This document shows, in pieces, positions 26,936-53,962 of a stretch of DNA of 64,000 nucleotides. Each line of letters starts with the position of its first letter. The first letter of the stretch is position 1. This DNA comes from Nitrospira sp. GTDB taxonomy: Bacteria > Nitrospirota > Nitrospiria > Nitrospirales > Nitrospiraceae. The position numbers were made by a program, and so were the translations under genes. The notes under the pieces were generated by a model that made no database searches, had not been told where the DNA came from, and saw only the letters and a program-made list of their open reading frames with translations. The stretch lies in NCBI GenBank assembly GCA_018242665.1, contig JAFEBL010000006.1, positions 62,001 through 126,000 of the forward strand. Reading direction: 5' to 3'.

Positions 26936-26988
26936 TGGTACCCCTCGTCCTGAAGGTTCCTTGCGCCATCGTCTACGCATTGACAGGT

Positions 26989-39537: not shown

Positions 39538-39684
39538 GCCGAGGGTCTCGCTTTACATACAAGCAGGCAGATCATTCTGAACTGGCATTCAAGGTGAACC
39601 ACGGCGCGCAGTCTAGGCATCTGCCTAGGAAGTGTCAACAACCCCGCCGGTCGCCGAATTTTGCCCAAAAATGTTTCCGGGTAT

Positions 39685-39788
39685 ACGCGATGCGCCGGAA
39701 GCCAATTTCCCCCGTACCCCTCGCGCGAAGATAGGACGCGCCTACACGCGCACAGAAGGACGCGAACGCCCGCGCGTCAATTCACGCG
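39685..39788. repeat. Cluster of ACGCG motifs
   Basis: Six ACGCG/CGCGT copies occur within 104 bp (39685, 39736, 39746, 39760, 39773 reverse, 39784), the last five at 10-14 bp steps. It lies in the 285-base gap between two leftward genes. It could be an iteron-like binding array or just a GC-rich tract. Confidence 0.4.
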
Positions 39789-39822
39789 CACGTGCAGGCA
39801 CAGGCGCGAAGAATGGACACGC

Positions 39823-40026
39823 TCACGGACGAGCGTTGCACTTCTCAGTGAGGTCGCGCCTTCCGGTCACGTAGGCGGCTCTGAGCGTTCCGCCGACTGC
39901 ATTGATTGTCTTGATATCGTCTTCGTAGCCCGCATAGATCTTCGCCGCCACATCCCTATGACGCTTGATGTACTCGACAGCAACATCAAGCACACGGACC
40001 TCTTCAAGGGTTAGATCTAGCTTCAT
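39823..40026 (-). CDS. Small helical hypothetical protein
   Basis: This 67-residue protein starts at the ATG at 40026 with AAGGAGAG upstream. It is charged and predicted helical (LTLEEVRVLDVAVEYIKRH), with no Cys-based zinc motif except a single Cys near the end. It lies divergent from the serine recombinase gene, with an inverted-repeat control region between them. By position it could be an excisionase or a small regulator; no motif proves this. A longer frame to 40092 lacks a ribosome-binding site. Confidence 0.6.
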   Translation of the reverse strand: MKLDLTLEEVRVLDVAVEYIKRHRDVAAKIYAGYEDDIKTINAVGGTLRAAYVTGRRDLTEKCNARP

Positions 40027-40178
40027 GGATACTCTCCTTTCTTGAGGAACATCCCAAAGACATAGCGTAGGTAAAACGGGGAGGTCGTTCAAGAGATCAC
40101 CTATACAGAAATCCCTTTCGTTTCCGGCCTCTCAAATGCTGCGCCAATCCCACAAATTCCCATTCGCCCCTAAATATT

Positions 40179-40205
40179 CGATATACACTTGATTTTTGTA
40201 TATCG
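40179..40205. promoter_or_regulatory. Inverted repeat operator/recombination site before the serine recombinase
   Basis: CGATATACA (40179-40187) and TGTATATCG (40197-40205) are perfect 9-bp arms with a 9-base AT-rich spacer, 40 bases before the recombinase ATG. It lies between divergent genes. It fits a dimeric repressor operator, or a resolvase-type binding site. Confidence 0.55.
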
Positions 40206-40244
40206 CTGTGCTACCTTCCACTCATCAACTTGGAGGCGCACACC

Positions 40245-40835
40245 ATGACCACAGTCAAGCGAGTAGCCTTATACGCACGTGTCTCGACAGACGGACAGAG
40301 CGTAGAGAATCAGCTTCGGGAACTGCGAGAGGTCGCGGAGCGGCATGGATGGCAGATCGTTAAGGAGTACGTCGATAAGGGCATTTCTGGAGCCAAGGGA
40401 CGCGATGAGAGGCCACAATTCAACGCAGTCCTCAATGGGGTAGCCCGCAAGGAGTTTGACCTTGTTGCGGCCTGGTCTGTAGATCGTCTAGGCCGGAGCC
40501 TTCAGCATCTCATCGGCTTCTTGAATGAACTACACGCCAAGAAGGTTGACCTCTATTTGCATCAACAGGGCATCGACACCACCACTCCCGCAGGCCGTGC
40601 GATGTTCTCCATGCTAGGCGTCTTCGGGGAGTTTGAACGGTCGATGATTCAGGAGCGCGTCAAGGCCGGGCTCAAGCGAGCCGTCGCGCAAGGGAAGGTC
40701 CTAGGTAGGCCGATGATTAACGGGGAGATCGAACAGAAGGTTCTCGCTCTCCGAGCCAAGGGGCAGGGCATTATCAAGATAGCCAAGACCGTAGGCATCG
40801 GCGTAGGTACCGTGTCCCGAATGGTGAAAGCCTAG
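40245..40835 (+). CDS. Serine recombinase (resolvase/invertase family)
   Basis: This 196-residue protein starts at the ATG at 40245, with TTGGAGG upstream. The catalytic domain has the nucleophile Ser14 in YARVSTDGQ, the conserved GxSGA region and VDRLGRSLQHL. The long helix E includes MFSMLGVFGEFERSMIQERVKAGL. A C-terminal helix-turn-helix (GIIKIAKTVGIGVGTVSRMV) binds DNA. It could resolve multimers, invert a segment or help the element's life cycle. No inverted pair of crossover sites flanking a segment was spotted. Confidence 0.93.
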   Translation: MTTVKRVALYARVSTDGQSVENQLRELREVAERHGWQIVKEYVDKGISGAKGRDERPQFNAVLNGVARKEFDLVAAWSVDRLGRSLQHLIGFLNELHAKKVDLYLHQQGIDTTTPAGRAMFSMLGVFGEFERSMIQERVKAGLKRAVAQGKVLGRPMINGEIEQKVLALRAKGQGIIKIAKTVGIGVGTVSRMVKA

Positions 40836-40849
40836 GCCGTCAGTTTCGA

Positions 40850-40877
40850 GGCTAGCCGGGAACTCTTCCGGCTGGCC
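40850..40877 (+). terminator. Stem-loop after the serine recombinase gene
   Basis: GGCTAGCCGG and CCGGCTGGCC form a 10-bp stem with one wobble and an 8-base loop, 14 bases past the stop. There is no T-run, so termination is probable but not certain. Confidence 0.5.
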
Positions 40878-40973
40878 GCGCCTCTCTCCTCCGTCCATCC
40901 GCAACCGATCCAAAATATTTTTCACCTTCATCCAACCCAGCCGCGCTTTCGTGTGGCTGACGGAGCTTCGTAA

Positions 40974-41798
40974 ATGCCTAAACTGTGTTCTAAATCACAC
41001 AACCTTAGAATGGTCGCGCTCATGCGGGCCAAGATTCCCACCAAGGTTTGCGTTGTCCCTCGCTGTGGGCGGGCCGTCTATCCCGGCCTTACCGTCTGTA
41101 GTAAGCACCAAATCGCCAGAGCCGTGAGAGGCCTAGCATGGGCCGAGCCCGATGTACTGCCCTTGGCGAAGAGACGGCCTTACATTCGCGCCTTACGTAC
41201 TCACCTGACGGAACGGCTTCGACTGGGAACAGACCTCACCGTCTATACCGCTGTCCGCGACCTCGCTTCGTTTATTCGCGTTCAGTGCATGCCTGAAGGT
41301 CTACAACCCTCCGACTTAGGAAGACGAGGCTTAACGGGAGTTCGCAAGATTCGAGCGGTCCTAGGCATCCTTGCTCGACAATTCGGTTCACCCGAAGCCG
41401 CTGCCCTTGCCGTGCTCTCTGTGGCCTGTGGCGTCACCCTCGCCGCGAAGGTCGAAAGTAAGGTTCAACACCCTCTCATCACTCGCGCCTCTATTACTTC
41501 CTCCATCTGGTTTCTCGTCTCAACACGCCCTCAGCGCTTTGGCGAACGCGTCTACCGGCGACACCGGCCACAGATCAAAGGTCCGCGTCTCCAAGCTGCC
41601 GTCGAAAAGCTTATCGTGAAGCCTTATGTCCCGTTCCTGCTGACGGCTGACACTGAGCACGAACTACTCTCGCACATGATGCAACCTGACGCGGCGGTCT
41701 ATGGGTTTCCTGGGTATCTGTGGAAACGCTGGAGCCGTCGCCTCAACAAGTCCATTCAAAAAGTCATGAACAAAGGAGCCTACTACCATGTCCGTTAA
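40974..41798 (+). CDS. Hypothetical protein with an N-terminal zinc-finger-like motif
   Basis: This 274-residue basic protein has an N-terminal C-x4-C-x10-C-x3-H arrangement (CVVPRCGRAVYPGLTVCSKH, residues 26-45) suggesting zinc binding. The rest is rich in Arg and Leu with predicted helices (GLTGVRKIRAVLGILARQFG) and a Trp/Arg-rich C-terminus (LWKRWSRRLNKSIQKV). I do not recognise a family. High basicity, the zinc motif and location after the recombinase suggest DNA binding, perhaps in replication initiation. It overlaps the next gene by 11 bases. Confidence 0.65.
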   Translation: MPKLCSKSHNLRMVALMRAKIPTKVCVVPRCGRAVYPGLTVCSKHQIARAVRGLAWAEPDVLPLAKRRPYIRALRTHLTERLRLGTDLTVYTAVRDLASFIRVQCMPEGLQPSDLGRRGLTGVRKIRAVLGILARQFGSPEAAALAVLSVACGVTLAAKVESKVQHPLITRASITSSIWFLVSTRPQRFGERVYRRHRPQIKGPRLQAAVEKLIVKPYVPFLLTADTEHELLSHMMQPDAAVYGFPGYLWKRWSRRLNKSIQKVMNKGAYYHVR

Positions 41799-42321
41799 GG
41801 AAGACCAGGAAGCGTTTGAAAAGGAAAAGACAGCACGAGCGAGCAAGATCAAAACCTATTTGCAGGGCAAGGCCGAGCCTAAGGCCAAACGTAAGGCCCA
41901 CCCAAAGGCCAAGCCTCAGGCAGCACTACCCGCAGAGACCATGGCCGAGCCTTCCACTCCCTCTACCGTGAATCAACCTATCAGCATCCCTGTCCGCGAC
42001 TCTTCCGCGCCTAATGGCTTACGGTATCGACCTATGAAGCCGTGGGAACGGATGGAAGGAAACCGAGTCGTTCAGTTCCGCCCTATGACACGTAGGGAGC
42101 GAGAGGCAGAACAAGAGTTCAAGTTTCTCGCCTCAGTGAAACGAGACGACGAAGCCCACAAGGAGCAACGCAGGAAGGCCGACGAAGAGGCGAAGCAATG
42201 GGCGAAGGAAGACCGACAGAGGCGAGAGCATGAGGAGCGAACCGGCTTGAGGGAATATGAGCCGGGGCGGTATCTCGATATTGAGGACGCAGTACGGCAA
42301 GGGTATATCCAGGGAAAATGA
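41788..42321 (+). CDS. Highly charged hypothetical protein
   Basis: This 177-residue protein is rich in Lys, Glu, Arg and Ala. A Lys/Ala/Pro-rich low-complexity linker (about 25-50) follows a short helix, then FRPMTRREREAEQEFKFLASVKRDDE and a long charged helix. It looks intrinsically disordered or coiled-coil. It overlaps the preceding gene by 11 bases with its ATG after AAAGGAG, implying coupled translation. A terminator follows it. No family is recognised. Confidence 0.6.
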   Translation: MSVKEDQEAFEKEKTARASKIKTYLQGKAEPKAKRKAHPKAKPQAALPAETMAEPSTPSTVNQPISIPVRDSSAPNGLRYRPMKPWERMEGNRVVQFRPMTRREREAEQEFKFLASVKRDDEAHKEQRRKADEEAKQWAKEDRQRREHEERTGLREYEPGRYLDIEDAVRQGYIQGK

Positions 42322-42397
42322 GCCCGATACGAGAGTAAAACTCCTTGGTGAGACGATGAAGCCTTGAATATTGAGACCCGCACAAATCTAAGGCGAG

Positions 42398-42427
42398 AGG
42401 GAGAGGCGCGTCAGTCTCTCCCTTTTT
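42398..42427 (+). terminator. Intrinsic terminator
   Basis: AGGGAGAG and CTCTCCCT form a perfect 8-bp stem with a 10-base loop, immediately followed by TTTTA. It closes the transcript of the Zn-finger-like and charged-protein genes. Confidence 0.75.
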
Positions 42428-42473
42428 ATTCACTGAATTGCATAGTTGTAAGGCTTGCGTTAGGTGGAACGGC

Positions 42474-42495
42474 TTGGAGGAATTATTTCCTCCAA
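42474..42495. other. Perfect 9-bp hairpin
   Basis: TTGGAGGAA and TTCCTCCAA are separated by TTAT. There is no T-run. It lies upstream of the gene starting at 42643, in an otherwise gene-free 320-base stretch (42322-42642). It could be an operator or a structured 5' leader that hides a Shine-Dalgarno-like GGAGG. Confidence 0.45.
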
Positions 42496-42642
42496 CAACG
42501 CTTCCCTAGCAACCAGATAAACCGCGAGGAGGCGAGGCCGTTTTAGTGGCATGGAAAAATATTTTCAACGGCTCTCAGGGGATAAAAACTCCTTGGCGCT
42601 CTTCATGCGGATTAGTCGAAACGCGAGGTTGTAGAGGCGAGA

Positions 42643-43476
42643 ATGCCTTGGCGGAAATTTTCTCCGCCCAAAGTCGCGTACGTAGCTTTCCAAACACTCC
42701 GGCACCCATTGCGGAGCCTCAGATACGGGTGTATAAGCGCTTACATGAAAGATGAATACGTAAATGATGATTGCAACCCTGAGCGATGGCATCAAGCCAT
42801 CCGCGCGGAGATGATTGCTCGTAGTGAGGAATTTGCGGAGGCCTTCGCGGAGGAGTGGCAGGCTGAAGAGCCGTATCTACGGCTCAAGGCTACGAAGAGA
42901 AGAAAGTCACACGATAAGGCCGCTTACCTGGCAGCTAAGGAACGCTACGAAAAAGCCTGCCACAATGTTCATCGGGTCATAGATACCCAGCGGGAGCTGT
43001 ACCGGGAAGCTGAACTTGCGGCCCTCAATAAGTACTTTGAACGACCAAAGCTAACCGATCCTACGCAATTCACTACTTGGCTGCGGAAGCATGTTGAATT
43101 GTATTTCAAGGCCCGTCTGTGTCCGGCCCGCGTCGTAATGGCTCCGATCTGGAAGCACGGTATCAGAGCACAATATGAGCAGCGCTATCTTCTTTTCGCG
43201 ACCCTCCATCGCGTGTTCATGGCCGACGGGGTAGAAGCCGCCATGAGGTTATATCAAGAAGAAATCGCCCAAAAGCTTCACGACAGCGTGTGGGCAACAA
43301 GCGAAACAGAAAAGATAAAAGGTAATCCCGCACAACGAAATGGCAGATACGATGGCGGATACTATGAGACTTCTATTCAAGCAGACCTTACGCCTTGGAT
43401 TGCGCCTGGACCAATTCCTTTCGTAGCGCGGGCAATCACGGAAATGGACGCCCACTTCGGCTTTGACTTCGACTAA
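42643..43476 (+). CDS. Hypothetical protein of the element
   Basis: This 277-residue protein is helical and rich in Ala, Glu, Arg and Tyr (AEMIARSEEFAEAFAEEWQAEEPYLRLKATKRRK; ERYEKACHNVHRVIDTQRELYREAELAALNKYFERP). It ends in an acidic-aromatic tail (MDAHFGFDFD). GAGGCGAGA precedes the ATG at 42643; an alternative start is the ATG at 42745. It is not recognised. The middle (FKARLCPARVVMAPIWKHGIRAQYEQRYLLFATLHRVF) has no catalytic motif I can name. By position it is the first gene before the small-gene block. Confidence 0.6.
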   Translation: MPWRKFSPPKVAYVAFQTLRHPLRSLRYGCISAYMKDEYVNDDCNPERWHQAIRAEMIARSEEFAEAFAEEWQAEEPYLRLKATKRRKSHDKAAYLAAKERYEKACHNVHRVIDTQRELYREAELAALNKYFERPKLTDPTQFTTWLRKHVELYFKARLCPARVVMAPIWKHGIRAQYEQRYLLFATLHRVFMADGVEAAMRLYQEEIAQKLHDSVWATSETEKIKGNPAQRNGRYDGGYYETSIQADLTPWIAPGPIPFVARAITEMDAHFGFDFD

Positions 43477-43528
43477 AAACCCTCGCTCCGGTATCCGCAA
43501 CAGACCGCCGCAAATTATCCCTGTGTTA

Positions 43529-43555
43529 CATGACATATGTGCCTGATATGTCGTG
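43529..43555. promoter_or_regulatory. Inverted repeat before the small-gene block
   Basis: GACATAT (43532-43538) and ATATGTC (43546-43552) are perfect arms around 7 bases, extendable to 9 of 10 matching positions. It lies about 145 bases before the first small gene. It fits a dimeric repressor or activator site. Confidence 0.45.
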
Positions 43556-43697
43556 ACAATCTGGCCGAAAAACAGGCCAAAATCCGAAAACTGTCATCCC
43601 TATAAAGGGAAGAAGCTTTTCGGCTTCGATCCTCTCTCTTTCTTTTCCGTTTTGTAACACTCTCGTTTCCGTTGCCTCTAACTAAAGGAGTCTCTCT

Positions 43698-43979
43698 ATG
43701 TCTGCCTTGGTGTCTATTCCTATTTGCTCCGACCCACACGCGCCGAGACCACGCATCAAGCATCAACCCAAGGTCCACTATCGGCCCTTCAAATTTTCAG
43801 ACCAAGACCTTCTGAATATTGATGCAATCCAACGGCTAACCATCCGAGCACAGAGCACGCCGAGACAGGCTTTCTCTATGGCTGCTGCCGTTCGTGCCGC
43901 GATTGCAGACTATGCCGCGAAGTTAAGGCGCAATGAAGGTACCACCAAACGCTCAACCAGTCCGCTGTCCGTGAAGTAA
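43698..43979 (+). CDS. Small protein, possibly ribbon-helix-helix-like
   Basis: This 93-residue protein has AAAGGAG 8 bases before its ATG. After a Pro/His-rich start, FKFSDQDLLNIDAIQRL and SMAAAVRAAIADYAAKLRR could form the strand and two helices of a ribbon-helix-helix DNA-binding fold. This is tentative. It heads the rightward run of small genes, and an inverted repeat lies upstream, so autoregulation is possible. Confidence 0.55.
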   Translation: MSALVSIPICSDPHAPRPRIKHQPKVHYRPFKFSDQDLLNIDAIQRLTIRAQSTPRQAFSMAAAVRAAIADYAAKLRRNEGTTKRSTSPLSVK

Positions 43980-44017
43980 CCGCATCCTCAACCACCATCA
44001 AAAAGGAGTTTCAACCA

Positions 44018-44257
44018 ATGCCCCATCATCATTCCATTACTCACGCTTCACTCGCTCAAGACATTGTGACTGCCCTTGTTGACCTCGATGAAAAACTGAA
44101 ACTGGCCGACGTAACCGACTTCGCAGACCTTGCCGACCGTCTTCGGAGCCTTGGCCGCTCTGAGTTCTTGCATCTCATGTCGTTTGCTTCGATTGCGTTT
44201 GGACTCGCACCGCTGGAGCCTGTCACTTCTGAAGTCGAAGAAAAGTCGAAGGAGTAA
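44018..44257 (+). CDS. Small acidic hypothetical protein
   Basis: This 79-residue helical protein (LVDLDEKLKLADVTDFADLADRLRSLGRSEF) ends in an acidic tail. AAAAAGGAG precedes the ATG. No family is recognised. It lies between the possible DNA-binding protein and the virion-like protein, 8 bases from the latter, in an apparent operon. Confidence 0.55.
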   Translation: MPHHHSITHASLAQDIVTALVDLDEKLKLADVTDFADLADRLRSLGRSEFLHLMSFASIAFGLAPLEPVTSEVEEKSKE

Positions 44258-44265
44258 CGTCCACA

Positions 44266-44895
44266 ATGAAACATGAACACCGATACCTGTCATGCGAACC
44301 GGCTTCGCTCACCTTGGCTTCGATGGGGATGGCTGCTGCTGGTGCTGGCGCGTCCCTCTATGGGCAGTCTCAACAACATGAGGCAGCGGAGCAGGTCGAA
44401 CAACAGAAGGCGGACGCGGTCAACGAACAAATCACCACGAATCGAAAACGCGCAACCGAAGATTACCTACAAACTGTCGAAGATGAGATGCTTCAGCAGG
44501 CACAGGAGAAACAAGCGCTCGCCGTCAAAGAGCAGGATCTCTATAAGGCCGAGCGAGCCGGTGCATCCTCCGCGAAAGTCGCCGCCGCTGAGTCTGGCGT
44601 TGTCGGTCAATACCTCGAAGCAATCCAAGCGGACTACAGACGACAGACTGACGAAGCGGCTATGCGTCTCGGCGTCAACCAAGGGAACGCCGACTATCAA
44701 CATACGCGCAACATCGAGGCCGCAACGACCATCTACAACAACCGCTCAACTAGCGTCATGCCCTATCAGAAGAACCCTGTGAAGCCGGTTGATTGGTTTG
44801 GCCCGATCTTCGGTGTCGCGCAAGCAGGTCTTGATATGGGTGTGAGGACAGGGGCGCTCATCAATCCGCTCACTCCTTCCACTCCGTCTAAGTAA
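44266..44895 (+). CDS. T7 gp14-like internal virion protein
   Basis: This 209-residue protein has a short hydrophobic Ala/Gly helix (LASMGMAAAGAGASLYGQ, about 15-32) and then a long Gln/Glu/Ala coiled coil. The motif AKVAAAESGVVGQYLEAI precedes an Arg-rich helix (DYRRQTDEAA), and the C-terminus has a second amphipathic Gly/Ala stretch. This order closely resembles phage T7 internal virion protein gp14 and related podovirus ejection proteins, which form a channel in the outer membrane during DNA entry. GAAGGAG precedes the ATG. It is the only gene in the element with a recognisable virion signature. Confidence 0.65.
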   Translation: MKHEHRYLSCEPASLTLASMGMAAAGAGASLYGQSQQHEAAEQVEQQKADAVNEQITTNRKRATEDYLQTVEDEMLQQAQEKQALAVKEQDLYKAERAGASSAKVAAAESGVVGQYLEAIQADYRRQTDEAAMRLGVNQGNADYQHTRNIEAATTIYNNRSTSVMPYQKNPVKPVDWFGPIFGVAQAGLDMGVRTGALINPLTPSTPSK

Positions 44896-44957
44896 TTCTT
44901 CCCCTCTTCCCCTAGAACCATTTCATCGAGGGCAGCAATTCCGCTGTCCTTGGTGAG

Positions 44958-45191
44958 ATGCGTTCGCCTTCCGTTGCAAAGGATCTTTCAGTGAAACCAT
45001 TTTTACCTCACGTGGCCTGTGCGTATCAGTTTAAAGACCGCTCAACCGTGACACCCTCAAAGCCCTTCGACCTTTCCGCCGCCGTCTGTGCGTGTCAAAG
45101 GTGGGCCTGTTTCTCGACTACGAGGGAGACAGGATTCCAAGAGTGGAGCAAACACATTTCAACCCAGATGAACCAGAAGGAGCACAACTAA
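44958..45191 (+). CDS. Doubtful small ORF
   Basis: This 77-residue frame ends directly before the next gene's ATG. It has no good ribosome-binding site, unusual composition (five Cys, many Ser) and no recognisable motif. It may be an untranslated spacer rather than a gene. Confidence 0.25.
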   Translation: MRSPSVAKDLSVKPFLPHVACAYQFKDRSTVTPSKPFDLSAAVCACQRWACFSTTRETGFQEWSKHISTQMNQKEHN

Positions 45192-45905
45192 ATGAGCTAT
45201 CCGACTCAATTCACGCGCTACACGATTGGCAGCGACAAACCTCAAGAAGAAATCGGTCAACGGAATAACCGCTACATCGGTCCGGAGAGTGGCTGGAAGG
45301 ACCATGGATTTAACAGCATGGAGGAGTGCCAAGCCGCATTTCAAAGCGAACTCTATCAGGTCGATGAGGAATATCGCCTTGCCGTACAAATCATGCTCGC
45401 CAACTCGCCGGAATTTGCGCCGGGGAATGCTGGTTCCGGTATCGAGATCGGAAATGGAGTACTTGAACGAAAGATGGCGAACACAGACGCCGCTCGACAG
45501 GCTGAAGACGCGGCTTGCTGGAACGAGTATGTTCAAAATCTCTTCAACGATCCAAGGTACCATACCTCGCCTATCTACAGACGCGAAGTCCGCGAACTCA
45601 TCGCCAAACATGAGGCTGAGTTTAACGGGAGTCCACTTGCCAGCCGTGTGGTGGATCGCACAGGGCAAGCCATGCGTATCGAATTAACGAGTGATGCCAT
45701 CGCAGAAACACGCGAGCAGCTTAAGGCCGAACATAAGGCCGATGCCAAAGCACAAGCGCAAGCCGCTGCAAGGTCCGCAGCAAGACAGGCGTACTTCTCG
45801 GCCTTAGGCACAAACGACCCCGGCGAAAGTGGACCGGATGGCATCTCTAACCAGACTCTTTTCGGGTCAACTTCGCCCACGCCTCAACCAGAATCAGAAG
45901 AATAA
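45192..45905 (+). CDS. Hypothetical acidic protein, possibly scaffold- or virion-associated
   Basis: This 237-residue protein has AGAAGGAG upstream of the ATG. The N-terminus is Gln/Tyr-rich, with FNSMEECQAAFQSELYQVDEEYRLAVQIM. A helical middle is followed by an Ala/Lys/Gln coiled region (EQLKAEHKADAKAQAQAAARSAARQAYF) and a flexible Pro/Ser/Gly tail. No family is recognised. The coiled, acidic make-up and position after the gp14-like gene would suit a scaffolding or internal virion role, but this is inference. Confidence 0.6.
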   Translation: MSYPTQFTRYTIGSDKPQEEIGQRNNRYIGPESGWKDHGFNSMEECQAAFQSELYQVDEEYRLAVQIMLANSPEFAPGNAGSGIEIGNGVLERKMANTDAARQAEDAACWNEYVQNLFNDPRYHTSPIYRREVRELIAKHEAEFNGSPLASRVVDRTGQAMRIELTSDAIAETREQLKAEHKADAKAQAQAAARSAARQAYFSALGTNDPGESGPDGISNQTLFGSTSPTPQPESEE

Positions 45906-45917
45906 GGAGCACGATCC

Positions 45918-46145
45918 ATGGCTATTACGATTCCGACACCGGGAGAAATTGCCGCGTTCGCACAAAAGCCACAGCCGGAAGTGATCGACTCAGACGTTAC
46001 TCCGACCAAAGAACGGCATGAACTGAGCACCGAGCAGACCCCCGCCGTCACGATCACTCGATACAGTGATGGGACGGTACGGAAGGACTGGGCGATTTCT
46101 CAAAGCGCAGTCGTCCAGCCGGAAACAGGGCTTCAGATCCAGTAA
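45918..46145 (+). CDS. Small hypothetical protein
   Basis: This 75-residue protein starts at an ATG with AATAAGGAG upstream, 12 bases after the previous gene. It contains a Pro/Glu-rich linker and the short segment VTITRYSDGTVRKDWAI, likely a beta-hairpin. It is not recognised. A structured repeat (hairpin A) follows immediately. Confidence 0.55.
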   Translation: MAITIPTPGEIAAFAQKPQPEVIDSDVTPTKERHELSTEQTPAVTITRYSDGTVRKDWAISQSAVVQPETGLQIQ

Positions 46146-46154
46146 GGACGGAAC

Positions 46155-46237
46155 GGCGTTAAAAGCCCTCCAGTGAGTCGGCAACGCCTACCCTTACCTC
46201 TGGTCGTCTTTTCCGTATCGTTGATCCTGGGGCAAAT
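46155..46237 (+). repeat. Structured intergenic repeat, copy A
   Basis: An outer stem GGCGTT/AACGCC (46155-46160 with 46183-46188) encloses GCC-CTC pairing with GAG-(TC)-GGC around loop CAGT. A partly conserved tail (ATCGTTGAxCCTG) follows. The same architecture recurs at 46571 with compensating base changes. Confidence 0.55.
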
Positions 46238-46330
46238 GCCCCTTCAAAAAAGGCCGCCAAATGAAGATTTGGGTTTCATTTTGGCGAGTCACTCCATCAT
46301 CACTCATTGTCTCCGGAGGGAGAAAGTCCC

Positions 46331-46420
46331 ATGCACGACCGTGAAACGAATTTTAGCCATGACTCAGACGAGCCGCAGCCCCTTCACCATCAAGCCGCGA
46401 ACCGCCAGGAAATGGAATGA
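46331..46420 (+). CDS. Possible 29-residue leader ORF
   Basis: ATG at 46331 has GGAGGG 10 bases upstream and encodes 29 residues rich in His, Gln, Asp and Glu, ending in TGA at 46420. It overlaps the next frame. It may be a leader peptide or chance. Confidence 0.25.
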   Translation: MHDRETNFSHDSDEPQPLHHQAANRQEME

Positions 46421-46559
46421 AGGGTTGATTGACTGTCTTCTAGCCCGCCGTCCGGAGAAGACGGCTACTGAACCGAAGTATACGGAGCCGATTACTGTAG
46501 CCGGTCCTCCGGGATGGGCTGAGGATCGGCCTTGGTGGTGGGGAGCCGGGAGAGCGTAG
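46359..46559 (+). CDS. Small hypothetical protein, start uncertain
   Basis: The frame 46173-46559 is open; the part from the ATG at 46359 (66 residues) looks most protein-like, with TIKPRTARKWNEGLIDCLLARRPEK and a Trp/Gly-rich end (GPPGWAEDRPWWWGAGRA). No good ribosome-binding site precedes this start. It lies between the two copies of the structured repeat. Function is unknown. Confidence 0.35.
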   Translation: MTQTSRSPFTIKPRTARKWNEGLIDCLLARRPEKTATEPKYTEPITVAGPPGWAEDRPWWWGAGRA

Positions 46560-46570
46560 AGAGAGAACCG

Positions 46571-46665
46571 AAGGCGTGAAGGCCGTCCAGTCAGACGGCT
46601 ACGCCTTACGCTCCGCCTTTTGTGCGTCCTTGCGTCCATCGTTGAACCTGCGCCCAATGCGTTCG
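46571..46665 (+). repeat. Structured intergenic repeat, copy B
   Basis: AAGGCGT/ACGCCTT (46571-46577 with 46601-46607) encloses GCCGTC/GACGGC (46582-46587 with 46594-46599) with a CAGTCA loop. Downstream, CCATCGTTGAACCTGCGC resembles the tail of copy A. Confidence 0.6.
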
Positions 46666-46716
46666 CACTGGAGGGCATTCTGTGAACCACTCCAGCCTGC
46701 CAACGCACGCGCCTCC

Positions 46717-46738
46717 TATGCTCATAGCTATGGGCATA
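46717..46738. promoter_or_regulatory. 22-bp near-perfect palindrome
   Basis: TATGCTCATAG and CTATGGGCATA are adjacent arms with one mismatched pair, 47 bases before the next gene. The form suits a dimeric DNA-binding protein. Confidence 0.45.
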
Positions 46739-46784
46739 ACTACGGCTCCAATTAGACCTATATCCAAACCAAGAAAGGCAACAC

Positions 46785-47165
46785 ATGCCCACTTCATCCC
46801 AAGATTGCTCGACTGATCTCGTTACCACCATCCTCGACGGTCCGCGACCAGGCACAGCCACCACGCGAGTAGACAAGAAGAACGTGCTCATTACTGGTCC
46901 CGCGTCGTTTACTGTGGTGAACAATGCCAGCAACGGCGCAGCGGTAGGCACCATGACCGCCGACGCGAACGCCGCACGGGTCTTCTCAATCACAGCCGGG
47001 AACGCGCAAGGGGTCTTTACGATCAATGCCAGTAGCGGAGCGATCACTGTTCTATCGAACACGAACTTAGGCATTGCGGGAACGATCCACCGCTTGACCG
47101 TGCGCTACTCCCTCACCAACGACACGGCGTTTGATGAGACGGTAGCGGTTGTCACTGTCACCTAA
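46785..47165 (+). CDS. Cadherin-like beta-sandwich protein
   Basis: This 126-residue protein has AGAAAGG upstream of its ATG. Residues 35-126 match the cadherin-like pattern: VGTMTADANAARVFSITAGN, then GVFTINASSGAITVLSNTNL, then a strand-rich end (TVAVVTVT). There is no signal peptide. In phage-related DNA such Ig-like or cadherin-like folds often decorate capsids or tails, so a virion-surface role is plausible. A terminator follows directly. Confidence 0.65.
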   Translation: MPTSSQDCSTDLVTTILDGPRPGTATTRVDKKNVLITGPASFTVVNNASNGAAVGTMTADANAARVFSITAGNAQGVFTINASSGAITVLSNTNLGIAGTIHRLTVRYSLTNDTAFDETVAVVTVT

Positions 47166-47177
47166 CGTCAGGTTTTC

Positions 47178-47206
47178 AAGGCCGGGACTGCCAACCGGCC
47201 TTCTTT
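47178..47206 (+). terminator. Intrinsic terminator
   Basis: AAGGCCGG and CCGGCCTT form a perfect 8-bp stem with a 9-base loop, followed by CTTTTC. It closes the transcript that ends with the cadherin-like gene. Confidence 0.75.
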
Positions 47207-47428
47207 TCACTGCCCCCCTGAAAATAAATTTTCACGAGTGCAGGCCTGCAAGACTTACAGCGTTCTCCTCCAAATCCTCAACCGCACTGCGTCCTTCTGT
47301 TGACGCCCACTCTTACGCCTTTGCAACACTTGCAACCATGCAATAGTTACCTAGGTTTGACTACTTGACGTTGTCCCATCTGTCATGGATACTGGCTTCA
47401 GCCATTCACACTTTTGGAGGTCTGAATT

Positions 47429-47749
47429 ATGTGGAGCATCCCACCGAGCCAAGCCGCCTCCCCGCCGATGCCTCAGCCGCAACCGCGCCGCGTTGTAGAG
47501 CATCAGCTTAGTCGAGCGACATATTTTCTTGCTGTTTCGTTGGTCAAGTTTGCGCCAGAGGAAACACTGATTGTGGTTCCTGGATTTCGAGAGACCACGA
47601 TCCCGCGCCTACTGGCCCTTGCCGAAAGCGGAAAAGGATCAGCCATCTTTCAAGGCCTCGCTGACGTATACCGCCGTCTCGACAGTATCGACCAAGCCGT
47701 GAGAGAGCAGGAACAGCGAGCCGGGATTGTTCGCGAAAAGAACGGGTAA
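47429..47749 (+). CDS. Small hypothetical protein
   Basis: This 106-residue protein has TTTGGAGG before the ATG. A Pro-rich start leads to a folded part (SLVKFAPEETLIVVPGFRETTIPRLLALAESGKG) and a C-terminal helix (VYRRLDSIDQAVREQEQRAG). It is not recognised. It lies 29 bases before the next gene in the same direction. Confidence 0.55.
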   Translation: MWSIPPSQAASPPMPQPQPRRVVEHQLSRATYFLAVSLVKFAPEETLIVVPGFRETTIPRLLALAESGKGSAIFQGLADVYRRLDSIDQAVREQEQRAGIVREKNG

Positions 47750-47778
47750 AATTTCACAATCACAGGAGGAGGGAGACC

Positions 47779-48333
47779 ATGAAGACTGCAACCGAACGAC
47801 ACCAGGGAGAAGCGGAGCAAATTGCATACGACCTTGAAACGTTGTGCATTGAGATGGCTCCGAACCAAGACGCGATCCAAGACGCAGCACGACGCGGCGA
47901 TCTTGGTAAGGAGATGAGCACGCTTACTCGCCAAGCGTTTGAGCGAGGAGAGGGAAGCCCCCGGTTTCGAAGGTTCATGGGGATACTTCAGCACATGGAA
48001 GCCGCCCTGGTAGCGACGTGCTTGGCGCTGTGTGTCGTGGTGCCCTCAGCGTTTGCCGTGGATCTTGGCTCGCTGGAGGAACTGACCAGCAACGCGCCTT
48101 CTTCCTGGGCCGCTGAGCCGCTGTATGGAGCGGACAAGGTACAGGCGGACGCCTACCTTCAGGAACGGCTTGACCTCAACACCTACCAAGCGGAGCGATC
48201 AGCCGAGCTACAGGCTCCTGTCACCTATGGAGCACCGAGCTATCAGAGTCCGACACACAACTTCACCGCGTACGGACCAAACGGAACGGCACTGAAGTGT
48301 ACACAGACAAGCCGTTCCGTAGACTGTTTTTAG
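47779..48333 (+). CDS. Hypothetical protein with an internal signal-peptide-like segment
   Basis: This 184-residue protein has AGGAGGAGGGAG before the ATG. The first 65 residues are charged and soluble. They are followed by MGILQHMEAALVATCLALCVVVPSAFAV (67-94), which looks like a complete Sec signal peptide. The rest is Tyr/Ser/Pro-rich with two Cys near the end (TALKCTQTSRSVDCF). Either it is a type II membrane protein, or an internal start at 47977 makes a second, exported product. No family is recognised. Confidence 0.6.
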   Translation: MKTATERHQGEAEQIAYDLETLCIEMAPNQDAIQDAARRGDLGKEMSTLTRQAFERGEGSPRFRRFMGILQHMEAALVATCLALCVVVPSAFAVDLGSLEELTSNAPSSWAAEPLYGADKVQADAYLQERLDLNTYQAERSAELQAPVTYGAPSYQSPTHNFTAYGPNGTALKCTQTSRSVDCF

Positions 48334-48471
48334 AATAGAAATCACCGTGAAAGGAGCGAGGCGCTCAGCGTCTCCTAGGGTACCCCGGCCTTCGCCCGCC
48401 GATGTTGTCTAGGAGAATGTCTGGGCGCTTCGTTCGTTTCGCACAACCATGAAGGGCGAAACTTCATCATC

Positions 48472-50565
48472 ATGATTACTCATCAACGCGACCGGCTAGC
48501 CCGTTGCTCGTATCAGATGCACCGCGATCAGCTCGAAAGCCACCACAACCGCCTCAGTCCCGCTCACGATCATTCCATAAGATCCTTTCACGCGCTCCTT
48601 GCTGGAATGGTAGACGGCAACGATACAAGCCTACAGGGAAAGTGGGCATGGGGCAGCGGGACCGGATGGGGAAAATCCACAGGCCTCTGTTCCTTTATGC
48701 GGGGCCTTGGTTCTCTCTACATGCTGAACCAACCTGGACGACCGTGGAACCATCAAGGCCACGTCTCCGCGATCATCACCGCCGCACGGATTGAAAGCCT
48801 CTATGAACTCCGCGACCAAATGACGCGAGCCGACAGGGGGAACCCAGCCTTCCGCTTTCCTGTCCCGGCTCATCGAATAGCCGTCTTGCATAGCGATTGG
48901 ACAGGGAAGTATGAAGCGAGCGAAGACGGCAAGGACGCGCCTATCGTCCTTGTCGCTCATAACAAGCTGAAGCATCTCGCCAAACGGCCCACCAAGGACC
49001 AAGAGGAGTTTCTTTACTACCACGGTCAACCGCGAGACCTCTGTATTGTGGACGAAGCCTTCAGCGAGAGCGAGGTAGGGTATCTAGATCAAGGCCTTCT
49101 CTGTAACGCGCTTCGGACCTGTCTCCTCAATGCGAAGGACCATCCTAAGGCGCATGACTTCGCGGACCTCCTCACCACCCTTGAACCGTTGTATGAAGCG
49201 ATTAAGGCCGAGAACCTCCGACAGGATAAGCTGACCGTCCTTGACCACTCAGAAGGGATGATCCATTCACCCGCCTTGAGCCAAGAAGACATCACGACCC
49301 TTGAAGGCTTAGTCAAAAGAGTCAGCTTAAGCCGAGACGATAAGACCTTACTCTGTAAATTTCTCCAAATGATTCCGTCTCCGTTGCGCCTGATTCGAGG
49401 CCATCAAAGCGGAGTCGTCACCGTCATTCAGACCATGCCGCCGTGTCTGACCAACCGTATCGAACTCAACGCCTCCTTTGAAGTCGGTATGCTGTCGGCC
49501 CTTGATCCGACAATCAAGAATGCTGACGATCATTTTCCCATGCTTCAGACGTTGAAGACTCAGTATGGGCTAGAAGGGTTAGCGGGAATCATCGACTACT
49601 CAGATATGCAGATTACCCACCTTCAACGCGGCGGAGGCAAAAGCACGATGAAAGGCCACCTGGAAGACCTCGCCAAGGAGAGCGGGTCTACGAAGGAGAT
49701 TCTTGATTTCTATATCTCGGCGATTAAGGCGACTCCAGAAGACGAAGGCGTCTTGGTGCTGACCTACAAGGACGACGGCGTAGACTATGTAAGGCAGCTT
49801 CAGCGAATCTTTGTGAGAGCGGGTATCGACATCAACCAGAAGATCCAAGACGCTGAAGGTCACACACAGCCTAGAATTGCCTTCACCACCTATGGGCAGC
49901 ATGTTGGAACGAATCAGTTTCGCTACTGTGCGACCGGCATTCTCGCTGGAGTCCAGCAGAGACATAAGGCCGATATTGCCGGAGCCATGTGTGGTGCGAG
50001 GAAGTCCATCGCCAGCCGGATCGACTTTGCAGAGGTAGACCTTGTCCATCAAGCCGTTGCTGCGTCCGATGCTCAACAGGCGATAGGTAGGTTACGCTGT
50101 CGTCTGGTGAAGAATGGGAAGGCGCTACCGGCTCGAATTTATGTCGTCCATCTCGACTCGGCTGACCGTACGTTTAAGACACGGTTGACCAAGGCCTATC
50201 CTAAGGCCGCATGGAAAGACCAGGCCTCAGAGAACCGAAAACAACAAGGCCAGTTCTTCAACCTAGCGAAAGCCGTAGCTGAGTATCTTGAACAAAGCTA
50301 CGTCGGAGCTTCCATTTCGACCGATGCAATAAAGACTCATCTCAGCTCAAAAGCAAAACGTTCCTCTGACCATAAGATAGATATAGGTTCCGTAACGTTT
50401 TCAGATCAGGTGTTTAGAAAGGCTATCCGATTGTTCCTAAAGGATAATTCTGGATGGAAACGGCAAGGACATGCCCTTGTGAAGGCCGTCCATAAGGCAG
50501 GGCTGGAGGTCGAGGAAATGGCAGATCCGATAGACTGGGGCGAGGATTCTAAAAAGGCTGTGTAG
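48472..50565 (+). CDS. SF2-helicase-like replication protein
   Basis: This 697-residue protein has a Walker A GSGTGWGKST (61-70), a DEAx-type Walker B CIVDEAF (191-197) and a motif VI QAIGRLRCR (536-544) supplying arginine fingers. VLVLTYKDDG (about 427-436) fits motif IV. This is a superfamily 2 DEAD/DExx-like core with divergent spacing. The last 120 residues may hold a DNA-binding domain. It probably unwinds DNA in element replication, as plasmid and phage-satellite helicase-primases do. No primase motif is seen. An 8-codon ORF (48449-48475) overlaps its start by ATGA. Confidence 0.8.
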   Translation: MITHQRDRLARCSYQMHRDQLESHHNRLSPAHDHSIRSFHALLAGMVDGNDTSLQGKWAWGSGTGWGKSTGLCSFMRGLGSLYMLNQPGRPWNHQGHVSAIITAARIESLYELRDQMTRADRGNPAFRFPVPAHRIAVLHSDWTGKYEASEDGKDAPIVLVAHNKLKHLAKRPTKDQEEFLYYHGQPRDLCIVDEAFSESEVGYLDQGLLCNALRTCLLNAKDHPKAHDFADLLTTLEPLYEAIKAENLRQDKLTVLDHSEGMIHSPALSQEDITTLEGLVKRVSLSRDDKTLLCKFLQMIPSPLRLIRGHQSGVVTVIQTMPPCLTNRIELNASFEVGMLSALDPTIKNADDHFPMLQTLKTQYGLEGLAGIIDYSDMQITHLQRGGGKSTMKGHLEDLAKESGSTKEILDFYISAIKATPEDEGVLVLTYKDDGVDYVRQLQRIFVRAGIDINQKIQDAEGHTQPRIAFTTYGQHVGTNQFRYCATGILAGVQQRHKADIAGAMCGARKSIASRIDFAEVDLVHQAVAASDAQQAIGRLRCRLVKNGKALPARIYVVHLDSADRTFKTRLTKAYPKAAWKDQASENRKQQGQFFNLAKAVAEYLEQSYVGASISTDAIKTHLSSKAKRSSDHKIDIGSVTFSDQVFRKAIRLFLKDNSGWKRQGHALVKAVHKAGLEVEEMADPIDWGEDSKKAV

Positions 50566-50612
50566 GTAAGAGAGGGGCTCAGGGTGTCGTTGCCTTGGGC
50601 TCCGCCTTACCT
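50564..50612 (+). terminator. Stem-loop after the helicase-like gene
   Basis: AGGTAAG (50564-50570) and CTTACCT (50606-50612) flank 35 bases and are followed by TTCC. The stem is modest; it is a candidate terminator or mRNA end structure. Confidence 0.4.
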
Positions 50613-50709
50613 TTCCTAGTACAGATAACTGAAGCGGCCAGGATCTTCAAAGCGGGCTCTGAATGCGGATGGAAGCCAGTGGGTTACGATGGGGGACAAA
50701 GGGTTACAT

Positions 50710-50738
50710 TTGTCTGACAAAAGTAGTACACTTGTAAT
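50710..50738 (+). promoter_or_regulatory. Sigma-70-type promoter for the 56-residue ORF
   Basis: TTGTCT (50710-50715), 17 bases, then TGTAAT (50733-50738, 5 of 6 matches to the -10 consensus). The ATG at 50793 follows about 47 bases after the likely transcription start. Confidence 0.55.
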
Positions 50739-50792
50739 GCGCGTGCAGTCCGTCTGCATCGAACAGCCTCACTCCTGAAAGGAGCTATTCCT

Positions 50793-50963
50793 ATGGGCAT
50801 GTATAGCGCCATGATGAAACAAGTACTCGAACACGCTAAGAAGCTGGAGAAATCTGGTCAGTTAGACCGGATGTTTCAGCCGCAGGTGCGGAGGCCGGAA
50901 CAGGAGGTTGTTTGTCGTCCTCTTCTGAAGCCGGAACAGGATCGCGTGCGTCGCGGTAAGTAA
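50793..50963 (+). CDS. Small 56-residue protein
   Basis: The ATG at 50793 has GAAAGGAG 8 bases upstream and a promoter before it. It encodes MGMYSAMMKQVLEHAKKLEK, then a basic Arg/Pro/Gln-rich tail ending RVRRGK. An amphipathic helix plus basic tail suits a small DNA- or membrane-binding regulator. Its last 128 bases overlap the end of the convergent membrane-protein gene. Confidence 0.5.
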   Translation: MGMYSAMMKQVLEHAKKLEKSGQLDRMFQPQVRRPEQEVVCRPLLKPEQDRVRRGK

Positions 50964-51723
50964 TGTTAAGGTTCTTGATCTCATTATACCTAATCAAAAA
51001 ATAATCCCCTGGCTCTATCCGTTGCCAAGAAAACACGGCCTTTTCACTGTCCACAACCTTCCTGAATTTACTTCTCCTTGCAGCGGTAATAATTAGGTCT
51101 CTTAGTGCTCCTCTCTCATCCGTGGTGAAGGCCGCAACGAGCCCTCTATAGAGACGCGTTTTGCCAGGTTCTTCAGTTGGCTCATCAGTCAAGGCATCGA
51201 CCCACACGATAACAAACTTCGACGGAACCCCCTCCAACTGCCCCCGACCGAGAATTGAATATATCCAGTCATTCCTGAAAGCAAAAATCTTTGGGCAATG
51301 CACGTCTAGCTCAAATTCCCACACGATCCAGCGAGAGAGATGACCAAATCCAAAAGCCGCTAACAGGATAAGTCCATAGTAGGTGAGGAGATGGATTTTG
51401 CTTTGATAAAACCGATCAAGAACCTCTGAAAATTTGAAGGTGTAGTCAGATCCAGTAGTTGAAAATTCCCCTGCCAACATCCTAAAGACACTTTCGATGT
51501 TTAGCGTGTGATGAATGACATGAGAATGCTGAAGGCAAATAACAATAAGGACGCCTGCAATGTGAAATGGGAGCGAGAAAATGATGGCTTTGGCTAGGTC
51601 GTCCGTCCAGCTTCGTTGAAGCACCTGACGAGTGAATTCATGGGAGAAGTAACAAGCTAGGAAAATGTATCCGGGAAGGGCGAGAAGAAGGAAAAGTAGA
51701 GATGTGAAGGCTATGTTAGTCAT
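50836..51723 (-). CDS. Membrane protein of unknown function (element cargo, possibly DUF6338-like)
   Basis: This 295-residue protein has an N-terminal transmembrane helix (MTNIAFTSLLFLLLALPGYIFLACYF) and further hydrophobic stretches near 45-65 and 115-130. A soluble C-terminal domain of about 150 residues follows (FAFRNDWIYSILGRGQLEGVPSKFVIVWVDALTDEP; AVFSWQRIEPGDYFLIRYNEI), then a Pro/Ala/Glu tail. It recalls DUF6338-type membrane proteins, but I cannot verify this. AT-richer than its neighbours and near the right end, it is probably cargo. Confidence 0.65.
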   Translation of the reverse strand: MTNIAFTSLLFLLLALPGYIFLACYFSHEFTRQVLQRSWTDDLAKAIIFSLPFHIAGVLIVICLQHSHVIHHTLNIESVFRMLAGEFSTTGSDYTFKFSEVLDRFYQSKIHLLTYYGLILLAAFGFGHLSRWIVWEFELDVHCPKIFAFRNDWIYSILGRGQLEGVPSKFVIVWVDALTDEPTEEPGKTRLYRGLVAAFTTDERGALRDLIITAARRSKFRKVVDSEKAVFSWQRIEPGDYFLIRYNEIKNLNITYRDARDPVPASEEDDKQPPVPASAPAAETSGLTDQISPAS

Positions 51724-51788
51724 ACAGCCGAGCGGAAGCTACCATAGACACCCTGTTTTGGCTAGGCCAATGACTTAAAATGTATAGC

Positions 51789-52067
51789 TCAAGACTTCAT
51801 GTGACAGACAACGAGTCCTCGCCGGGTTTCCTTCTCAATCAGGCGCAGAAGGTTGCCGTAGGGTAGCCGCATAGGTAAGCCATCCGGCATATCTGCACTA
51901 AATTTCTCCCCGTCTGAGCTTCTTCTTCCTTTGACTTGAACAGGGGGAGACGCTGACTCCTCATGGATTATAGCGAGGACATATCGCGTCTCCCCCGGCT
52001 CAAAGTTCCTCAGGACTGAACAATTGTGTTTGTCTTTCAAGTCTAGTATCCACGTCGGTTCTCCCAT
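51789..52067 (-). CDS. Small hypothetical protein
   Basis: This 92-residue protein starts at the ATG at 52067, with AAGGAG 6 bases upstream. It appears beta-rich (WILDLKDKHNCSVLRNFEPGETRYVLAIIHEE) with no membrane segment. It is not recognised. It lies between the membrane-protein gene and the integrase on the same strand, so it could be an excisionase-like or cargo protein. Confidence 0.55.
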   Translation of the reverse strand: MGEPTWILDLKDKHNCSVLRNFEPGETRYVLAIIHEESASPPVQVKGRRSSDGEKFSADMPDGLPMRLPYGNLLRLIEKETRRGLVVCHMKS

Positions 52068-52211
52068 ATCGTCTCCTTGCTGAGGCTGTGGGTTGAGCTT
52101 CACGCAAGAAGCTTACTGGAGGTTTAGATCAACCAACAACCAGAATAAATGGTCTCGACCCTGCAGCAACCTTTAATGTGGGTAGAAACGTTCAGGAGAG
52201 GGGAAGACCTA

Positions 52212-53771
52212 TCAAACCAGTCGTTTCAGCATTCCTCTGTACGCCTCCCCTAGCACATCCATCGAATTCTTCAACTTCTCCAAGCTGAATGCTCCGGTAT
52301 GTGTGTAATCTTTAAAATGCACGTCTGTCCGGCCTCCTGTGTGGCCTGTGAGCGCAGTAGCATGAGCATCCGGAACCCCATGCTCTGCTAGCTTCGTTAT
52401 GCCTCCGTGCCGGAGTGAGTGCAGCACCTTACCCTTTCCACCTATCTTGAGCCGCTTGACCAACCTCGCCCACGCCTTCCCCGGCACATCTCCATAACCG
52501 TTACCCTTGTGTTTGAGTTGAGGAAAGATGCGCTTATGGTCGATGGATTCGGCATACCGAAGAAATCCCAATTGAAGGAGCAAATCTGGCAGCGGCACCA
52601 CTCGACGAGAGCCGACATTCTTCACGGTCTTTTCCTTGTCCTCTTCTCCTCCATCAATGAAATGAAAACACCAAAGGCCGGTCTTTGGATCTTTCTTCAC
52701 ATCGGCCTTATCGAGTTGATACACCTCCTCGCGCCGAGCCGCTGTGAGGAGGAGAGCCAGCAGGCCGAAATAGTATTCGGGATGAGTTTCCTTCCAGTCT
52801 TGGAAGTTCTTACTACAGAAGATGGTAGCTAGCTCCTCGTCTGTGAATGGAACCACCTTCCTAGCCTGTGACCGTACCACGCTCTTTGCGATCCTCAGCC
52901 CTTGTGCCGGATTGCGATGGTCTTCAGCCAAGAAGCCTTGAGCCTGAGCCCATGTAAGGCAGTGCTCAAGGCTATGCAGGTACTTATTCACGCTTGCGGC
53001 TCCTAGCTCCATCTCGCCGACCATCTCTTCCTTGTAGGCTCTACAATCGGCCTTCGTGATGTCCCCTACCGGCTTATCTCCTCCCATTACTTTTATGAAC
53101 CGTTGGAACCCCGCTCGAATCTGGCTCTGTGTACGTGTCTGACGGTTGGAAAATTCCTTCATGTAGGCGTCCACGACAACGGAGAAAGGCTTAGAGACTA
53201 TGAGCGGTCTTGCTTCGGTGTAAGGGCGCTTTGACTCTTCCCGGTACTCCCCATCCATTCGCCTGATTTCTTCGCGGTACAGTTCCACCCGCCCCTTCAA
53301 CAGCTCATGACACAGCCGCCCAAACTCCGGCGAACCTGGTTCGATTGGCAGGCTATGACGTGTAACGAGTTCCAAGGCGAGGTCTTTCACTTTCCATTGT
53401 TGATTCATCAACCGCGCTTCGTCCGCCTCTTCCAGCAAATCCCCATAGGTGTCCTTGTACCCTTCGGCCTCCTCAAGCTCATTCGTACCGCTCTCAGCCT
53501 TAGCCTGTTCTGTCCGCTCAAGCTCTGAGTGAATCCATTGCGCGACAAGGGCTTTGATTTGATCGGGACGCATAGCAGCTCCGTAGCGTTGAAGATGAAG
53601 GAAGAGACGACGGCCTTGGCTCTCGAAGGTGCAGGCCCTTAGTTTGGCCTTCGTGCGGTCTGTTGTTCTGAGCGATTTCCAGAACTCTACACGACCCTGA
53701 AGCAACGACCAAAGGTTTTTAGGGACAGTGAGGCGGATGTAATAGGACTTGCGGGAGTTGTGGAACCACAC
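52212..53771 (-). CDS. int: Tyrosine site-specific integrase
   Basis: This 519-residue phage-type integrase carries the catalytic set: Arg346 in LLTAARREEV, the H-x-x-R pair in HSLRH (451/454), His477 in TGHTGG and the nucleophile Tyr489 in FKDYTH. The N-terminal part (WFHNSRKSYYIRLTVPKNL) resembles the short arm-binding domain seen in many tRNA-targeting integrases, followed by a core-binding domain (about 195-300). It lies 113 bases from the right att site, in the 3' end of tRNA-Glu, and catalyses element integration and excision. Confidence 0.95.
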   Translation of the reverse strand: MWFHNSRKSYYIRLTVPKNLWSLLQGRVEFWKSLRTTDRTKAKLRACTFESQGRRLFLHLQRYGAAMRPDQIKALVAQWIHSELERTEQAKAESGTNELEEAEGYKDTYGDLLEEADEARLMNQQWKVKDLALELVTRHSLPIEPGSPEFGRLCHELLKGRVELYREEIRRMDGEYREESKRPYTEARPLIVSKPFSVVVDAYMKEFSNRQTRTQSQIRAGFQRFIKVMGGDKPVGDITKADCRAYKEEMVGEMELGAASVNKYLHSLEHCLTWAQAQGFLAEDHRNPAQGLRIAKSVVRSQARKVVPFTDEELATIFCSKNFQDWKETHPEYYFGLLALLLTAARREEVYQLDKADVKKDPKTGLWCFHFIDGGEEDKEKTVKNVGSRRVVPLPDLLLQLGFLRYAESIDHKRIFPQLKHKGNGYGDVPGKAWARLVKRLKIGGKGKVLHSLRHGGITKLAEHGVPDAHATALTGHTGGRTDVHFKDYTHTGAFSLEKLKNSMDVLGEAYRGMLKRLV

Positions 53772-53884
53772 GCGCCGACCTCATAGACCGTAGACATAAA
53801 CCGTAGCGAGCTACAGTCGGCCCTGTGAAATCGACACAGCGAAACGCTGAAACGCTAGTCTGGGAGCGGTATTTGTGAGGTAAT

Positions 53885-53901
53885 TGGTGTCCCCAACGGG
53901 A
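53885..53901. other. attR, right attachment site within tRNA-Glu
   Basis: This 17-bp repeat matches 38676-38692 exactly and is the 3' end of the tRNA including CCA. The crossover preserved the full tRNA on this side. Confidence 0.92.
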
Positions 53902-53962
53902 TTTGAACCCGTGTTACTGCCTTGAAAGGGCAATGTCCTAGGCCAGGCTAGACGATGGGGAC
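53885..53962 (-). tRNA. tRNA-Glu (UUC)
   Basis: The 78-base minus-strand cloverleaf has acceptor arms GTCCCCA/TGGGGAC, an anticodon loop CTTTCAA with anticodon TTC, T-arm CGGGTTCAAATCCCG, discriminator A and an encoded CCA (53885-53887). It stays intact after element insertion. Confidence 0.97.

Follow-up and report, generated by a model that had tools for sequence, protein, structure and literature searches.

The window analysed here, a stretch of 64,000 nucleotides from a Nitrospira genome of 4.06 Mb, carries a whole integrative element of 15.2 kb at 38676-53901. The element is bounded by an exact 17-bp repeat (38676-38692 and 53885-53901) of the 3' end of a tRNA-Glu gene, which lies on the minus strand at 53885-53962. 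One end is occupied by a tyrosine integrase gene (52212-53771, minus strand; DUF6538 E 1.1e-9, Phage_integrase E 4e-5, the latter below its cut-off), and a serine recombinase gene (40230-40835, plus strand; PF00239 E 3.7e-46) lies towards the opposite end. On the plus strand between them are genes for a T7 gp14-like internal virion protein (44266-44895; PF24072 E 1.2e-13), a T7 scaffold-like capsid assembly protein (45192-45905; PF05396 E 2.9e-6, phrog_1052 1.4e-7) and a helicase-like protein (48472-50565), labelled from its motifs (Walker A GSGTGWGKST and DEAF) and used as the query for relatives. The match of the scaffold-like protein covers the C-terminal part only of the T7-type scaffold (positions 235-291 of the 293 of phrog_1052).

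Phage satellites such as PICI and P4 have an integrase acting at a tRNA gene and a scaffold-like protein of their own. The element of the window shares these traits: integrase, att repeat and scaffold-like gene are present, and a full virion gene set was not detected (portal, major capsid and terminase had no match among the proteins tested). It differs from PICI and P4 in its T7-like scaffold and gp14 genes. Together with its relatives it has the appearance of a satellite of T7-like phages, and the gene content would fit a satellite that alters capsid assembly. No described case of a satellite of T7-like phages was found in the part of the literature that was searched.

Two related intergenic segments, A and B, lie downstream of the scaffold-like gene. 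Copy A (46149-46257, plus strand, by direct reading) consists of a hairpin at 46155-46188 with the stem GGCGTT/AACGCC, a spacer and a tail, ATCGTTGATCCTG, which starts at 46217; the extended tail, ATCGTTGATCCTGGGGCAAATG, occupies 46217-46238. Copy B (46567-46678, plus strand) has the same layout, with the stem AAGGCGT/ACGCCTT and the inner pairing GCCGTC/GACGGC at 46571-46607, a spacer and the tail ATCGTTGAACCTG at 46638 (extended form ATCGTTGAACCTGCGCCCAATGCGTTCG, 46638-46665). The first-pass annotation had placed two copies with a stem and a common tail at 46155 and 46571, and both are present there. A and B are 73% identical over 100 columns, and their local alignment score of 39 compares with a maximum of 18 in 1000 dinucleotide shuffles; the two segments are related beyond chance. 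The annotation had further read the inner pairings as a compensating base change. As text, CTC/GAG in A and GTC/GAC in B are indeed present. However, the loops differ (CAGT in A, CAGTCA in B), so the 3' triplets do not fall in the same alignment columns: GAC of B stands opposite GTC of A, and GAG of A opposite CAG of B. The difference is a register shift and not a strict compensatory substitution.

Further inverted repeats accompany the two copies. A hairpin (GCCAAATGAA/TTTCATTTTGGC, 46252-46287, plus strand) lies between A and the following small ORF; near-identical sequence occurs in two related elements (G015 and G028, described below), with folding z scores of -2.4 in the window, -2.2 in G015 and +0.7 in G028. 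On the 3' side of B there is a 22-bp imperfect palindrome (TATGCTCATAGCTATGGGCATA, 46717-46738, plus strand), and G015 and G028 have a 22-bp imperfect palindrome at the equivalent place, unlike in sequence. Hairpins flanking a small ORF are also a feature of integron cassettes, whose attC sites have the boxes RYYYAAC ... GTTRRRY. By reading, B contains GTTGAAC with no RYYYAAC upstream, and A contains GTTGATC, without a GTTRRRY-like box; an attC identity was rejected. A resolvase res site was also set aside, the serine recombinase gene having a separate palindrome of its own upstream (CGATATACA...TGTATATCG).

The small ORF lies between A and B, as had been noted, and behaves as coding. It starts with GTG and encodes 72 amino acids (46341-46559, plus strand); the protein is 68 and 77% identical to its homologues. 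Over 150 nt, substitutions at the three codon positions numbered 10/13/16, 11/13/22 and 14/13/25 in the three pairs, a third-position excess in two of the three. The protein had no Pfam or PHROGs match, and its AlphaFold model was poor (pLDDT 66.7, pTM 0.30). At 46331-46559, an ATG with a good ribosome-binding site opens a 29-codon frame that overlaps the small ORF, and the conserved protein is read in the +1 frame from the GTG 10 nt past this ATG; a frameshift or a coupled start is possible. The small protein is unlikely to be a binder of A and B: a distant relative, G001, has tails and no homologue (tblastn, 1e-3), and locus L017 has a homologue and no match to the motif model introduced below. 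The codon-position count was also applied to the repeats, for B only. In the tail region of B the substitutions are even across the three elements (16/15/14, 11/9/11, 15/10/15), and the alignments contain 1- and 2-nt indels. For B these results reject a duplicated coding sequence as the source of the similarity, an origin the annotation had named as one that would undo its proposal.

Two other segments of the window near these genes were recorded. A 126-aa cadherin-like ORF (46785-47165; Pfam E 0.0048, below cut-off) lies between B and the next operon; tblastn searches of the other element loci found no counterpart of it, and it is probably cargo. At 47220-47400, a promoter-like site (47365-47393) is directly preceded by palindromic repeats of the TGCAAGNCTTGCA kind and by an AT-rich box (AAAATAAATTTT) that is conserved; comparable boxes occur in G015 and G028, and the segment looks like an operator or origin region. 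Elsewhere in the window (18637-30545) a 2437-aa repeat-rich protein adjoins ABC-exporter and HlyD-like genes, probably a type I secretion system as judged from the translation alone.

By DNA search, B was found in two of 29 genomes of the genus besides the window's own, G028 (81% identity) and G015 (73%). The gene order in both is gp14-like gene, scaffold-like gene, 75-aa ORF, A, small ORF, B and helicase operon; for G028 it was pieced together from two contigs, and the 75-aa ORF was not found there by tblastn. The block from A through the small ORF to B is kept at 70-80% in the three elements. The three B copies, together with A, served to build a covariance model, which was run on 147 genomes of the family Nitrospiraceae. 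A and B of the window scored 78.8 and 121.8 bits, both copies being part of the model; the best match outside the model's own copies was in G001 (E 1.1e-4). The G001 locus is a distant relative of the element, with helicase, integrase and recombinase 29, 30 and 58% identical. It has a 72-nt stretch 74% identical to A that contains one tail copy, and a second tail 6.4 kb away; both lie outside any small-ORF operon, and one of them is in 1.7 kb of non-coding sequence, rich in repeats and in AT, that adjoins the helicase gene. At this locus (L124, 8900-10150), the interval between the integrase and helicase genes contains direct repeats of 34-78 bp in arrays as well as an AT-rich tract, an arrangement that resembles a replication origin. 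The proposal of a conserved RNA or DNA element is supported, the block being present in three related elements and partly in distant G001, with B non-coding.

Counting the window's own genome, the helicase alignment matched 13 of 175 family genomes. The element family comprises 38676-53901 of the window and loci L014, L015, L016, L124 and L139-L146, with genes for a serine recombinase, gp14-like, scaffold C-terminal-like and helicase-like proteins and a tyrosine integrase; some relatives keep the gp14-like and/or scaffold-like gene, and some have an endonuclease VII-like gene. When the covariance model was run on ten loci from other helicase places (some partial or contig pieces), the sole match was the included G001 locus, and an unfiltered search of five of these ten gave nothing below E 0.39. 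Viral contigs yielded no relatives with the helicase, helicase alignment, gp14 and scaffold queries. Two DNA patterns gave three stretches there, which all look like coding coincidences, one (L020) as judged in a 301-bp excerpt and the other two from 150 bp of sequence preceding the motif and 110 bp following it. Phage and plasmid records gave no match.

The position of A and B between genes of the same strand, with A followed by the second hairpin, then GGAGGGAG and then the ORF, would suit a structured RNA: the small-ORF transcript would have A as its leader and B as its 3' region, the hairpins serving processing, stability or translation. This is the main rival to a site acting as DNA, and we consider it rather unlikely. 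The folding results are divided. Compared with shuffles, hairpin plus tail gave z scores of -5.4 for A of G015, -3.3 for A of G028, -2.25 for B of the window, -1.8 for B of G028 and -1.2 for B of G015, whereas A of the window (+0.4) and the two G001 copies (+0.7 and -0.4) folded no better than shuffles. There is room for action as RNA because the B hairpins are strong on both strands about equally (z about -4 to -5) while the A folds favour the plus strand (for A of G015, z -6.7 on plus versus -3.9 on minus). Stems drawn by hand for five copies had G-U as their only pairs of non-Watson-Crick type and no A-C, a weak hint at action as RNA or as the plus single strand. Against an RNA role, the stems differ between orthologous A copies: those of G015 and G028 form long hairpins with the tail as 3' arm, unlike A of the window, and the tail is better conserved than any stem. 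The covariation argument of the annotation is weak: in an alignment of four sequences, 87.5% of cells were paired and two of 14 pairs had double changes, a number equalled by 57 of 500 shuffles. Searched against Rfam 15, the window gave no match over A or B at the gathering threshold, and neither did the region or two relatives at the looser limit of E<=10. The suggested attenuator found no support, as no intrinsic terminator follows A or B; in 45900-47500 there was no plus-strand site, and the two terminator-like sites, both on the other strand, compare with 1.8 expected.

The kinship of the copies is uneven. The 5' half of A of the window resembles B (score 22 with B of the window versus 12 and 8 with the A orthologues), and its 3' half resembles the A orthologues of G015 and G028. 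In these two elements A and B have little in common apart from the tail, with scores of 16 and 14 against shuffle maxima of 15 and 16. A of the window may be a hybrid produced by A/B conversion or, being also closer to G001 than any other copy, a retained older form. A tentative reading is that A and B are direct copies of a non-coding cis-acting module made up of a short hairpin followed by the conserved tail ATCGTTGAWCCTGNGSC.

Matches of the covariance model outside the elements (E 5e-4 to 0.05) were found in G404, G183, G426 and other genomes. Tail-only matches fell in 137-bp repeats with the terminal inverted repeat CTAGGAGCCTGTCCGA (MITEs) in G028, G390, G294, G016 and G002, and at transposase genes in G220. 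Their E values of 0.1-0.5 per genome, over 147 genomes, are at chance level, and clear coding coincidences occurred alongside. The MITE and IS copies, however, agree with one another over about 36 nt. A sequence-only model was made from ten MITE/IS copies, with no element copies in it. At E<=0.01 it found sites in 71 of 172 Nitrospiraceae genomes, and in several of these their number reached ten or more; at E<=1e-4 it matched 26 of 335 genomes of the phylum, all 26 in this family, whose share of the 335 is not shown. The pattern CATCGYTGAACCTGMGSCC, searched with two mismatches, occurred in 148 of 395 genomes, mostly as scattered single sites, and exceeded the reversed control; it was set aside as evidence. 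The wider motif goes beyond what the first-pass annotation had proposed, and no description of the motif or the element was found in the portion of the literature covered.

Most of the inspected sites lie in MITEs or near the 3' ends of transposase genes. The thirty loci retrieved in the family scan were classified by reading as 16 MITE-like, six IS110-type flanks, six resembling rve-type IS ends and two other. Pfam supported IS110 for the two tested; three loci gave an rve domain, one of them above the curated cut-off. L173, whose flank places it with the rve-type ends, has an upstream AIPR gene. At IS110-type loci with an open transposase frame the motif follows the stop codon in sense, and at rve-type loci with a frame it is antisense to the transposase. 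In the repeated G220 copies identity ends 121-122 nt beyond the motif start, and it is evident from these and from the repeated copies in G028 that motif and element move together. The 137-bp MITE family with the CTAGGAGCCTGTCCGA terminal repeat was present in the genomes G028, G002, G016, G294, G390 and G227; full-size IS with the same terminal repeat (L121, L122) are without the internal motif. The 45 nt upstream of 20 distinct motif sites had a mean folding z of -0.98, with seven below -1.5 as against at most two in controls, and the layout of a stem followed by the motif is the same as in A and B.

On the element loci (118 kb), the sequence-only model gave exactly five matches, all of them module tails: A of G015 (E 2.7e-4), A of the window (8.5e-4), the first G001 copy (1.4e-3), B of the window (1.5e-3, model positions 5-32 of 48) and the second G001 copy (0.01). 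The tails of B of G015 and of both copies of G028 were not among them. The tail similarity could be a coincidence, A and B having arisen by an ancient duplication confined to elements of this type and being unrelated to the dispersed motif. The seeds of the model had been chosen by their likeness to the tail, so that its finding tails is partly circular, and eleven other loci fetched as element relatives had no match at E<=10 (most were from helicase places, some of them partial, and one, L017, was the scaffold-like place in G004). Nevertheless, five tails and nothing else were picked from 118 kb, and the match continues past the core on differing sides (upstream for G001, downstream for A and B of the window and for A of G015), an extension not imposed by seed choice. 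We consider coincidence quite improbable, and the tail and the dispersed motif are probably homologous.

In another rival reading, the tails are functionless fossils of MITE or IS ends that had entered an ancestor of the elements. The tail does resemble MITE/IS sequence, and G028 holds both. This origin appears unlikely: a search of the window's genome for the terminal repeat of the MITEs found no match, no terminal repeats were seen by eye around A or B, and the block is preserved in three elements to the degree given above. The same two observations on terminal repeats led us to reject A and B as MITEs themselves. Like MITEs and IS subterminal repeats, A and B are short, non-coding and dispersed in mobile elements with inverted repeats nearby. 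They differ from both in having no visible terminal inverted repeats and no sign of self-movement, and in that IS elements with unrelated families of transposase carry the motif. REP/BIME-type palindromic repeats are dispersed, hairpin-forming and lineage-restricted. The motif shares these properties but differs in that the tail, not the hairpin, is conserved and in that most inspected sites are in mobile elements.

The best reading, which we put forward tentatively, is a cis-acting site that belongs to mobile elements, is specific to this lineage and probably functions at the DNA level. The tail would be the 5' part of a site of about 30 nt (GATCGTYGWTCCTNNGCCAANTGTGYGCG) located near the ends of unrelated elements in the family, namely satellite-like elements, MITEs, IS110-family and rve-type IS elements. 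An action at the DNA level is suggested by the orientation relative to the transposase, which differs between IS families, by the lack of conservation of the stems, and by the G001 copies, which lie outside a small-ORF operon, one in the non-coding stretch by the helicase gene. The site would work mainly as DNA, bound by a putative factor common to the lineage or its phages, and binding may serve replication, packaging or expression of the element. That unrelated elements acquired such a site of about 30 bp near their ends horizontally or by convergence, as a means of access to common machinery of the lineage, is rather unlikely; examples of such machinery would be a DNA-binding factor of the host, or a phage that packages all of them.

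If the tail is such a shared site, mobile elements of one bacterial lineage that are otherwise unrelated would have a signal in common, which would point to a host or phage factor on which all those elements depend. Nitrospira are key nitrifiers with few genetic tools, and the shared site, if true, would provide a sequence tag for their mobile elements.
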